Assembly: GCF_013177675.1 (NCBI RefSeq)
Contig: NZ_CP042652.1
Span: 1,054,001-1,118,000, forward strand
DNA: 64,000 nucleotides
From: Arcobacter acticola
Lineage (GTDB): Bacteria > Campylobacterota > Campylobacteria > Campylobacterales > Arcobacteraceae
Reading direction: 5' to 3'
Shown: in pieces, positions 14,879 through 49,588 of the stretch
Position numbering within the stretch: the first letter of the stretch is position 1
Layout: each line of letters opens with the position of its first letter
Notes under the pieces: model-generated
Database searches by the model: none
The model's input: the letters and a program-made list of their open reading frames with translations, nothing else
What the model was told of the DNA's origin: nothing
Translations under genes and position numbers: made by a program

Positions 14879-15265
14879 ATGATACTCAATAATAAAATCA
14901 AAATCTTTTTTGCTATTGCTTCATTTATGATGGCATTAGGCATAGCTCTTGGAGCTTTTGGAGCTCATGCATTAAAATCTATTCTTGATGAATATTTTTT
15001 AAAAATCTACAATACAGGTATTCAATACCATTTTTATAATACATTAGGACTTTTTGCTGCAACTTTTATTTATGCATTAAAACCTGATTCTAAAAAAATC
15101 TTTATTTCTTTATGGCTTATTATAATTGGTATGATAATTTTCTCTTTTTCATTATATTTCTTAGCTATTTTAAACATGCCAATTTTAGGAGCAATAACAC
15201 CAATTGGTGGAACATTACTTATTATTGCATGGCTTACTTTAACTTATGGTATTTTAAAGGACTAA
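14879..15265 (+). CDS. DUF423 family small membrane protein
   Basis: A 128-residue protein with four hydrophobic segments and the DUF423 features GAFGAHAL at about 26-33 and YHFYNTLGLFAA near 50. GGAAG precedes the ATG at 14879. Function of the family is unknown. It ends 4 bases before the ion channel, so the two are probably co-transcribed. Confidence 0.85.
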   Translation: MILNNKIKIFFAIASFMMALGIALGAFGAHALKSILDEYFLKIYNTGIQYHFYNTLGLFAATFIYALKPDSKKIFISLWLIIIGMIIFSFSLYFLAILNMPILGAITPIGGTLLIIAWLTLTYGILKD

Positions 15266-15269
15266 TTTA

Positions 15270-16073
15270 ATGACAGTTATGGAAAAAATTGTTCATGTTA
15301 GAGATTCAAAATGGTTTTCTAATTTAACAACTATAATTATTATTGCATATGCTTCTATTTTGGGGTTTAAAACTTTAGATGAAGTTGATACTCATTATGA
15401 TTTATTTTTAAAGCTTGCTGATTATTTTGTAACCATTTATTTTGTTTTTGAATTAGCTATTAAAATGATTGCAGAAAAGAAATTCTTAAATTTTTTTAAA
15501 TCAGGTTGGAATTTATTTGACTTTGTAATTGTTTTTATTACTCTTCTTCCTTTAGAGTCATCAAACTATGCTGCAATTGCTAGACTTATGAGGGTATTTA
15601 GAATTTTAAGATTATTTACAGCTAGACCTGAATTAAAAGCTATTATTGATATGTTAATCAAAGCAATTCCTGCAATTATTGATATTGTTATTTTGATGTT
15701 TATAATCTTTTATATATATGCCATTATTGGTAATTTCTTTTTTGTAAATTTAGAATCAGGATTATGGAAAGATTTCTTAGTTTCTATGTTAACACTTTTT
15801 AGAGTTTTAACATTTGAAGATTGGACAGATGTTATGTATGAAGCTATGGAAGTTTATCCATGGGCTTGGACATATTTTGTTTCATTTATTATAATTGCAG
15901 CATTTGTATTTTTTAATCTTTTTGTTGCTGTTATTATTGGTGAAATGCAAAAACTTCAAGAAGCTGAAATGAAAGAAGAGATTCATGAAGATAGTTTAAA
16001 ATTAGATATTTTATTAAAAGAAATGAAAGCTCTTAGAGAAGAAGTAAATAACTTAAGAAAAGAAAAACAATGA
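15270..16073 (+). CDS. Voltage-gated cation channel of the bacterial NaV type with acidic filter
   Basis: A 267-residue, six-helix channel subunit expected to form tetramers in the inner membrane. Helix S4 carries Arg at 105, 108, 111 and 114, the voltage-sensor spacing. The pore loop has TFEDWTD at 181-187 (15810-15830), where NavAb of Arcobacter butzleri has TLESWSM. S6 (about 202-225) is followed by an acidic neck and a coiled coil (226-265) as in NavAb. The filter aspartates match positions that, as I recall, make the engineered CavAb calcium-selective, so this may be a natural calcium or mixed channel. The stop overlaps the next gene by 4 bases. Confidence 0.9.
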   Translation: MTVMEKIVHVRDSKWFSNLTTIIIIAYASILGFKTLDEVDTHYDLFLKLADYFVTIYFVFELAIKMIAEKKFLNFFKSGWNLFDFVIVFITLLPLESSNYAAIARLMRVFRILRLFTARPELKAIIDMLIKAIPAIIDIVILMFIIFYIYAIIGNFFFVNLESGLWKDFLVSMLTLFRVLTFEDWTDVMYEAMEVYPWAWTYFVSFIIIAAFVFFNLFVAVIIGEMQKLQEAEMKEEIHEDSLKLDILLKEMKALREEVNNLRKEKQ

Positions 16074-16834
16074 AAAAATTTACAATATTAGGAACTGGTT
16101 GGTTAGGTTTTGAATTGGCAAAATCATTTAAAGATTTATATAAAATAAAAGTATCTTCAAGAAATGAAGAAAAGTTAAAAATTTATGAAGATGAAGGTTT
16201 ATCTTCATATGTTTTAAATGAAAATCATTTGGAATCTTTAGATGAATTACTTGATACAGATTATTTATTTATTAATTTCCCTCCTTCAAAATTTGATGAT
16301 TACTTATCTTTCTTGAATAAGATTTATGAGCATAAAAAAATAAAAGATATAGAAAAAATTATATTTATTAGTTCTACTTCTGTTTACCCAAATATTGAAG
16401 GTTTTTTCAATGAAGAATTTGAGATTGAAAATTCAAGTTCAAAAATAGTATATGAAGCTGAGAAATTAGTTTTAAATAAAAGTGATATTATTTTTAGAGT
16501 TTCTGCACTTGTTGGAGCAAATAGAGTTTCAGGAAGAAGGTTATCTAATAAAGTTGTGGAATATCCAAAAAGTGTAATAAATTTTGTTCATAGAAATGAT
16601 GTAATAGATGCGACAAAGTTTGTCATTGAAAATAATCTTAATGGTACATTTAATCTTTGTTGTAAAGAACATCCAAGTAAAGAAGATTTATATAGTTTCA
16701 ATGCTAAAAAATATGATTTTGCCTTGCCTCTATTTTCACAAAATAAAGATTTTTTAAATAGAATAATTGATGGTTCTAAAATAGAAAAGTCAGGATTTGT
16801 CTATAAGCATGAGAATGCCTTTGATTTAATATAG
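16070..16834 (+). CDS. NAD(P)-dependent epimerase/SDR family protein (YeeZ-like)
   Basis: A 254-residue Rossmann-fold protein. TILGTGWLGFELA at residues 5-17 is the nucleotide-binding turn, in the GxGWLG form found in YeeZ-like atypical SDRs. FISSTSVYPN around 100 carries the SDR Ser/Tyr region, and the C-terminal half is short. It starts inside the channel stop codon (ATGA overlap), implying translational coupling, though the functional link is unclear. Substrate unknown. Confidence 0.8.
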   Translation: MKKFTILGTGWLGFELAKSFKDLYKIKVSSRNEEKLKIYEDEGLSSYVLNENHLESLDELLDTDYLFINFPPSKFDDYLSFLNKIYEHKKIKDIEKIIFISSTSVYPNIEGFFNEEFEIENSSSKIVYEAEKLVLNKSDIIFRVSALVGANRVSGRRLSNKVVEYPKSVINFVHRNDVIDATKFVIENNLNGTFNLCCKEHPSKEDLYSFNAKKYDFALPLFSQNKDFLNRIIDGSKIEKSGFVYKHENAFDLI

Positions 16835-48667: not shown

Positions 48668-48684
48668 TCTTTATAGACTATTTT
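48661..48684. terminator. Bidirectional hairpin between perR and the antiporter
   Basis: AAAATAGTCT (48661-48670) and AGACTATTTT (48675-48684) form a perfect 10-bp stem. It includes the perR stop codon and overlaps the end of the antiporter gene, so it must serve both. Confidence 0.75.
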
Positions 48685-49588
48685 GTATTACTAATCCTAA
48701 AACTACAAGCAAAGCAATCCCTGCTGATTTATTATAAAGTTTGTTAGCTGTTATAAATACCAACATCAAAGAGACAATAAAAGCTGCACTTATATCAAAT
48801 AAATAGCTATTGAAATCTACATTTAGTGGATTTATAATTGAAGATAATCCTAAAACCATAGTAAAGTTTGCTACATTTGAGCCTATTATGTTTCCTATTG
48901 CTAAATCAGCATTATTATTTATCGCTGATTTTACTGAGATTATAAGTTCTGGTAAAGAAGTACCAAATGCAACTAAAAATAATCCTATTATCCATTCACT
49001 TATTCCAAAACCTCTTGCTATATTTCCTGCACTATCAATAGCAAAATTTGCTCCAACAATTACAAAAATAAAACCAATCAAAAGTAGGACAAGTGTTTTA
49101 ATCCAATTGAATTTATCTTTTGATAAATCTTCATCAGATTGTTCAATACTATTTGAGTTTATCAAAAATAGTAAATAAGCTCCCATCATACAAATAAATA
49201 AAATACCATCAAACATTGATATTCTTCCATCTATTCCCATTAGTATAAATATTAAAATAGGAAAAATAGACCAAGCTGAATCTTTTGCGAATAAATCTCT
49301 TTTGGGTTCAATGTTTTTTGCAAGTAAAAATACAAGTCCTAACACAAGTGAGATATTAAATATCGTACTTCCAATAACATTTGCAACTGCAATATCTGCA
49401 CTTCCTTTTGCCGATGCTGACATTGAAACAGCCATTTCAGGAAGACTTGTTCCAACTGCAACTAATGTAGCTCCTATTACAAAGCTTGATATATTAAAAT
49501 GAAGAGCGATTCTTTCACTTTCTTTTATCACAAAATCAGCTCCATATATTAAAGCTGCCATTGCAATAATAAATATTAAAAAATCCAT
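48671..49588 (-). CDS. Calcium/sodium antiporter (CaCA family, YrbG-like)
   Basis: A 305-residue inner-membrane exchanger with about ten helices in two inverted halves. The alpha repeats are GATLVAVGTSLPEMAVSM near 39-56 and FLVAFGTSLPELIISVKSA near 205-223, each followed by GS-type Asn/Ser (NVIGSTIFN and NIIGSNVANF). Family members exchange Ca2+ for Na+ or H+. Only 2 bases separate it from ybeY. With the acidic-filter channel at 15270 it suggests calcium handling matters here, which is speculative. Confidence 0.9.
   Translation of the reverse strand: MDFLIFIIAMAALIYGADFVIKESERIALHFNISSFVIGATLVAVGTSLPEMAVSMSASAKGSADIAVANVIGSTIFNISLVLGLVFLLAKNIEPKRDLFAKDSAWSIFPILIFILMGIDGRISMFDGILFICMMGAYLLFLINSNSIEQSDEDLSKDKFNWIKTLVLLLIGFIFVIVGANFAIDSAGNIARGFGISEWIIGLFLVAFGTSLPELIISVKSAINNNADLAIGNIIGSNVANFTMVLGLSSIINPLNVDFNSYLFDISAAFIVSLMLVFITANKLYNKSAGIALLVVLGLVIQNSL

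Follow-up and report, generated by a model that had tools for sequence, protein, structure and literature searches.

Does an acidic selectivity filter suffice to make a bacterial voltage-gated channel a calcium channel? A gene in the window, the 64,000-nucleotide stretch of the Arcobacter acticola genome analyzed here, raises this question: its product carries the filter TFEDWTD, which the preliminary description of this DNA had likened to that of the engineered, calcium-selective CavAb. The letters of the filter alone turn out to be a poor guide to Ca2+ versus Na+ selectivity.

The channel gene and its surroundings

The channel gene, located at 15270..16073 on the + strand, is an intact open reading frame of 267 aa with an ATG start and no internal stops; the reading frame, Pfam match, trees, and model together identify an AnclNav-like, single-domain (6TM) voltage-gated cation channel. 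The protein matches the Pfam Ion_trans domain with 151 bits (E 3e-44). A Shine-Dalgarno-like AAAGGA (15256..15261, +), situated 8 nt 5' of the ATG, lies within the 3' end of the upstream gene. The alignment places the S4 gating arginines R105, R108, R111, and R114, invariant among orthologues, at 15582..15611 (+), and the filter TFEDWTD occupies residues 181-187 (15810..15830, +). An AlphaFold2 monomer model, built from a 43-sequence alignment with a mean pLDDT of 91, comprises six TM helices, a P1 pore helix (residues 169-180; 15774..15809, +), a P2 helix (residues 185-195; 15822..15854, +), and a single helix (residues 199-266) formed by S6 and the tail. Superimposition of the model onto the NavAb and NaChBac structures gives Z scores of ~19-20 across ~225 residues, with 32% identity to NavAb. 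The C-terminal region (residues 234-262; 15969..16055, +) displays a heptad pattern of M234, I238, L245, L248, M252, L255, V259, and L262, supporting a coiled coil.

The 6TM Ion_trans domain, the S4 arginines, and the P1-filter-P2 pore place the protein in the BacNav superfamily as a real, probably functional voltage-gated channel. The six-helix frame, the filter position, the intact S4 arginines, and the coiled coil are all as the preliminary description had given them. Cysteines are absent, and a CavMr-like L6 disulphide is thus lacking. The residues opposite NavAb T206 and A215 in the alignment are A211 and A220; we take these NavAb positions to be the sites of NaChBac T220 and G229. Ala at these two NaChBac sites slows inactivation (PMC7041947), predicting slow inactivation for the window channel as well.

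Upstream lies a gene for a DUF423 membrane protein (14879..15265, +; Pfam), whose presence beside the channel is conserved in Arcobacteraceae only, and downstream a gene without a Pfam match, resembling NAD-binding epimerases/dehydrogenases (16070..16834, +). The channel stop overlaps the start of the latter (ATGA), so the three genes likely form one operon. Further neighbors include xanthine/uracil permeases and phosphoribosyltransferases, likewise conserved within Arcobacteraceae only; the loci of Arcobacteraceae and Gammaproteobacterial channels have no neighbor in common, and a functional link through gene context was dropped on these grounds. Within the host's genus, the channel occurs in only 2 of 31 genomes, and in many congeners (e.g., G001 and G016) the DUF423 and epimerase-like genes abut directly. 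The empty site, corresponding to 15266-16069, is clean in most congeners (G001 C1:878494-879636; G016 C178:2301-3454). Because other genera keep the DUF423-channel-epimerase order, a loss affecting most congeners is more probable than a gain of the channel.

The preliminary description had also pointed to a Ca/Na exchanger, which is indeed encoded at 48671-49588 (Na_Ca_ex, 194 bits), ~32 kb from the channel; the genome holds a second one at 349251-350189. As a hint of a calcium channel, the exchanger carries little weight: it is present in all 51 channel-bearing Arcobacteraceae genomes and also in 36 of the 53 channel-less ones, and the association is confounded by phylogeny, with 16 of the 17 exchanger-less genomes coming from one genus. 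Several relatives have a similar exchanger-channel distance, probably reflecting general synteny.

Spread of the filter and place of the channel among BacNavs

The host genome (3.02 Mb) encodes a second Ion_trans protein of 268 aa with the filter TLESWSM; its 457-bit match to the NavAb structure 5YUA identifies it as the NavAb orthologue. The window channel, with ~34% identity to it, is therefore a paralogue and not a mutated NavAb, and the two make Arcobacter acticola a convenient source of a native pair for comparison. Aligned with this orthologue, F182, E183, D184, and D187 correspond to NavAb L176, E177, S178, and M181, in agreement with the earlier reading of Glu at 177 and Asp at 178 and 181, with the D187-M181 pairing slightly ambiguous, since the sequence set determines whether MAFFT opens the one-residue P2 gap after D187 or directly behind the filter Trp.

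Orthologues of the window type are present in 51 of 104 Arcobacteraceae genomes, all 51 with TFEDWTD, and their identity of 65-100% to the window channel is separated by a clean gap from that of the NavAb-like genes (31-39%). Four further Campylobacterota orthologues outside the family bring the identical filters to 55/55, encoded by 21-nt stretches in 22 different spellings, which indicates purifying selection on the protein sequence. Scanning a single genome for each species yielded at least 537 relatives; among the matches listed, 80 were retained, partly on the TFEDWTD motif itself, and all 80 carry it (Campylobacterota, Halomonas, Marinobacterium, Cellvibrionaceae, Thiomicrorhabdus, Ghiorsea, and others). 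A Gammaproteobacteria sample of 369 genomes, selected independently of the filter, gave matches in 99 genomes; the 90 genes read comprise 34 TFEDWTD, 20 TLEDWTD, 2 TFESWAT, 1 TFDNWAH, and 33 canonical or other filters. The filter is thus no speciality of this lineage. A search centered on a 'Polarisedimenticolaceae' genome added no new phylum, returning many genomes of the Gammaproteobacteria search, apparently Pseudomonadota, and a plasmid collection gave matches in Pseudoalteromonas and Leisingera. A literature search of open-licence texts found TFEDWTD in none of them, and we know of no TFEDWTD channel that has been measured.

In a tree computed without the filter columns, acidic-filter channels separate from the TLESWSM-type clade (split support 100/99), and the window gene falls within a Campylobacterota TFEDWTD clade (100/99), adjoined by a mainly Gammaproteobacterial TFEDWTD clade and then by a TLEDWTD group. 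A tree with all columns again groups the gene with the TFEDWTD channels and outside the canonical clade. Tree position, filter (TLESWSxG-type in the canonical clade), and scaffold (Gln172/Arg185) all place it outside the NavAb-like channels. Ancestor-like BacNavs that are neither NavAb-like nor Bacillus channels have been named AnclNavs (Shimomura et al. 2020, PMC7041947). The separate branch (100/99, filter columns omitted) and a TLESW-type filter with extra acids, ancestor-like TLED/SWTD (TFEDWTD here, TLEDWTD in its neighbors), make the channel most likely a member of this kind, by group resemblance in a tree that holds no NavPp, CavMr, or NaChBac.

Several divergent channels were observed alongside. 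L258 (G748), with TMSSWEN recalling NavRh TLSSWET, and L228 (G626), with TFDNWAH, lie near the TFEDWTD clade on long branches. Six Campylobacterota channels (L080, L081, L082, L086, L087, and L088) are short, at ~230-250 aa, with the filters TGDSWSE, TGESWSG, TGEGWSE, TFESWSE, and TLEGWSE, some bearing a CavMr-type Gly4. Channel decay in some lineages is suggested by further BacNav genes of Campylobacterota, interrupted by in-frame stops in genomes G254, G314, and G336 and broken in two in G307 and G415.

Covariation of a P1 arginine with the filter aspartate

Arg178 on P1 (15801..15803, +) occupies the site of NavAb Gln172, while Tyr190 on P2, a helix one residue shorter than in NavAb, occupies that of Arg185. 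Both sites and the P2 length were scored in 291 channel sequences. Channels with Asp at filter position 4 have Arg at the Gln172 site in 218/218 cases and Tyr at the Arg185 site in all, and their P2 helix is one residue shorter in all 216 with scorable length; channels lacking Asp4 have Gln at the 172 site in 73/73 and Arg at the 185 site in 68/73. Restricting the count to distinct proteins leaves 195 Asp4/Arg and 73 non-Asp4/Gln channels, with no exceptions. The constant company of Arg, Tyr, and a short P2 sets the acidic filter on a scaffold unlike that of NavAb and CavAb.

Counted on a quick tree from which the whole P1-P2 block was omitted, the P1 residue and Asp4 change six times each and jointly in 5/5 independent pairs (sign test p 0.0625, the minimum attainable with five), a covariation noticed after looking at the data. 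Three Gammaproteobacterial channels inside the TFEDWTD clade (L184, L188, and L328) carry TFESWAT with Gln on P1, Ser4, and a P2 one residue longer, which in sequence terms is a natural reversal toward the canonical BacNav pore. These three could stem from gene conversion of the whole P1-P2 block or from its horizontal spread, and block transfer by recombination could be part of the explanation of the covariation itself; such transfer, if real, would leave fewer independent events than counted.

In NavAb, Gln172 bonds the main chain of Glu177 and Arg185 on P2 in one network, and Q172N abolishes current (PMC12919392). We read the covariation as structural coupling between the filter acid and the P1 Arg, which would partly neutralize the 12 filter acids. 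Such coupling fits published chimeras, because NavAb-CavMr filter swaps give no current while CavMr-NavPp swaps are functional (PMC7041947). The P1 Arg/Gln site, which together with P2 length always changes with the filter Asp, may bear on why acidic filters produce a Ca2+ channel in CavAb and a Ca2+-blocked Na+ channel in NavPp. We regard this coupling as the most useful new point here, the channel itself being a further member of a described family.

Ion selectivity in the light of measured channels

According to a review, Asp at filter position 4 marks channels that are either Ca2+-selective or Ca2+-blocked (PMC10120453). NavPp, with the filter TLEDWTD, prefers Na+ (PCa/PNa 0.308 ± 0.028), shows low-affinity Ca2+ block, and discriminates against other monovalents (K+ 0.16, Cs+ 0.005); its TLEDWSD (T6S) and TLEDWAD mutants are still Ca2+-blocked and gain no Ca2+ permeability (PMC7041947). 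Phe at position 2 is natural in some BacNavs and AnclNavs, and NavAb L176F creates no Ca2+ block (Irie et al. 2023, PMC10349818). On balance, analogy with NavPp leads us to favor a channel that would prefer Na+ or select weakly, let some Ca2+ through, and be blocked by external Ca2+ in the millimolar range, without being highly Ca2+-selective. Counting against this NavPp-like reading, CavMr carrying the NavPp filter has a PCa/PNa of 13.8, so the backbone decides selectivity. From the preliminary proposal of a calcium or mixed-cation channel, the voltage-gated character, Asp at 178 and 181, and the distinction from NavAb are retained; the step from a CavAb-like filter to a calcium channel is not, given the Na+ preference of NavPp and the missing Gln172-Arg185 scaffold. 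That description would have yielded to a family with this filter known to be sodium-selective, and NavPp comes within one residue of such a case.

Under the favored reading, we infer that the gene product would be one subunit of a homotetrameric, AnclNav-type voltage-gated cation channel, in which depolarization would move S4 (R105-R114) and open the S6 gate. Cations would then cross a filter in which Glu183, Asp184, and Asp187 each form a ring. With Arg178 and Tyr190 of the short P2 in place of the Gln172-Arg185 network, this acidic ring would rest on a different, partly charge-compensated scaffold and conduct in the NavPp-like manner. More tentatively, an E-D-D ring counter-charged by a co-evolving P1 Arg may constitute a distinct filter architecture in hundreds of mainly marine bacteria, with conduction that could be Ca2+-permeable or Ca2+-blocked through a mechanism unlike those of NavAb, CavAb, and CavMr.

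The CavMr chimera with the NavPp filter, with its PK/PNa of 0.95 and little monovalent selectivity (PMC7041947), provides the model for a mixed, poorly selective channel (PCa/PNa ~1-20, little Na+/K+/Cs+ discrimination); we consider this possible, if doubtful, as NavPp itself discriminates against K+ and Cs+ and the window backbone is without CavMr's cysteine-bridged L6 loop. It is unlikely that the E183/D184/D187 rings bind Ca2+ and exclude Na+ as in CavAb, making a native Ca2+-selective voltage-gated channel. The NavAb TLEDWSD and NaChBac TLEDWAD mutants are described as Ca2+-selective (PMC7041947), Asp4 strongly raises Ca2+ permeability in both channels (PMC10120453, PMC7764494), CaV3 gives the best sequence matches among solved structures (a score inflated by its multi-domain total), and the P2 register EDWxxVxYxxM agrees with CaV3 domain II. 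Yet NavPp with TLEDWTD prefers Na+, and the only native prokaryotic Cav depends on Gly4, with CavMr PCa/PNa falling from 218 to 7.7 in G4D (PMC7041947); the window channel has Asp184 at this position, no cysteines for the L6 disulphide, and a P1 Arg and short P2 unlike CavAb. A canonical NavAb-like sodium channel that gained two Asp substitutions in this lineage would share the fold and the 32% identity seen here; it is highly improbable, as the same genome holds a separate NavAb orthologue and the trees already contradict it, placing an old TFEDWTD family that spans Campylobacterota and Pseudomonadota outside the TLESWSM clade.

Among known systems, NavPp of Plesiocystis pacifica, an AnclNav, is likewise a single-domain voltage-gated channel, its filter differing at position 2 only. 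CavMr of Meiothermus ruber, also an AnclNav, has Glu3 and Asp7 in common with the window channel but bears Gly4 (filter TLEGWVD) and a cysteine-bridged L6 loop, against Asp4 and no Cys here. The AnclNavs of Halomonas elongata and Teredinibacter turnerae, reported with NavPp-like filters, gave no detectable current on expression (PMC7041947); other relatives in Halomonadaceae and Cellvibrionaceae carry TFEDWTD. NavAb and CavAb of Arcobacter butzleri share the fold, S4 arginines, and coiled coil, and the Asp residues at 178 and 181 are common to CavAb and the window channel. CavAb combines Asp rings at 177, 178, and 181 with the Gln172, Arg185, and longer P2 of the NavAb scaffold, whereas the window channel combines Glu at 177 with Arg178, Tyr190, and a shorter P2.
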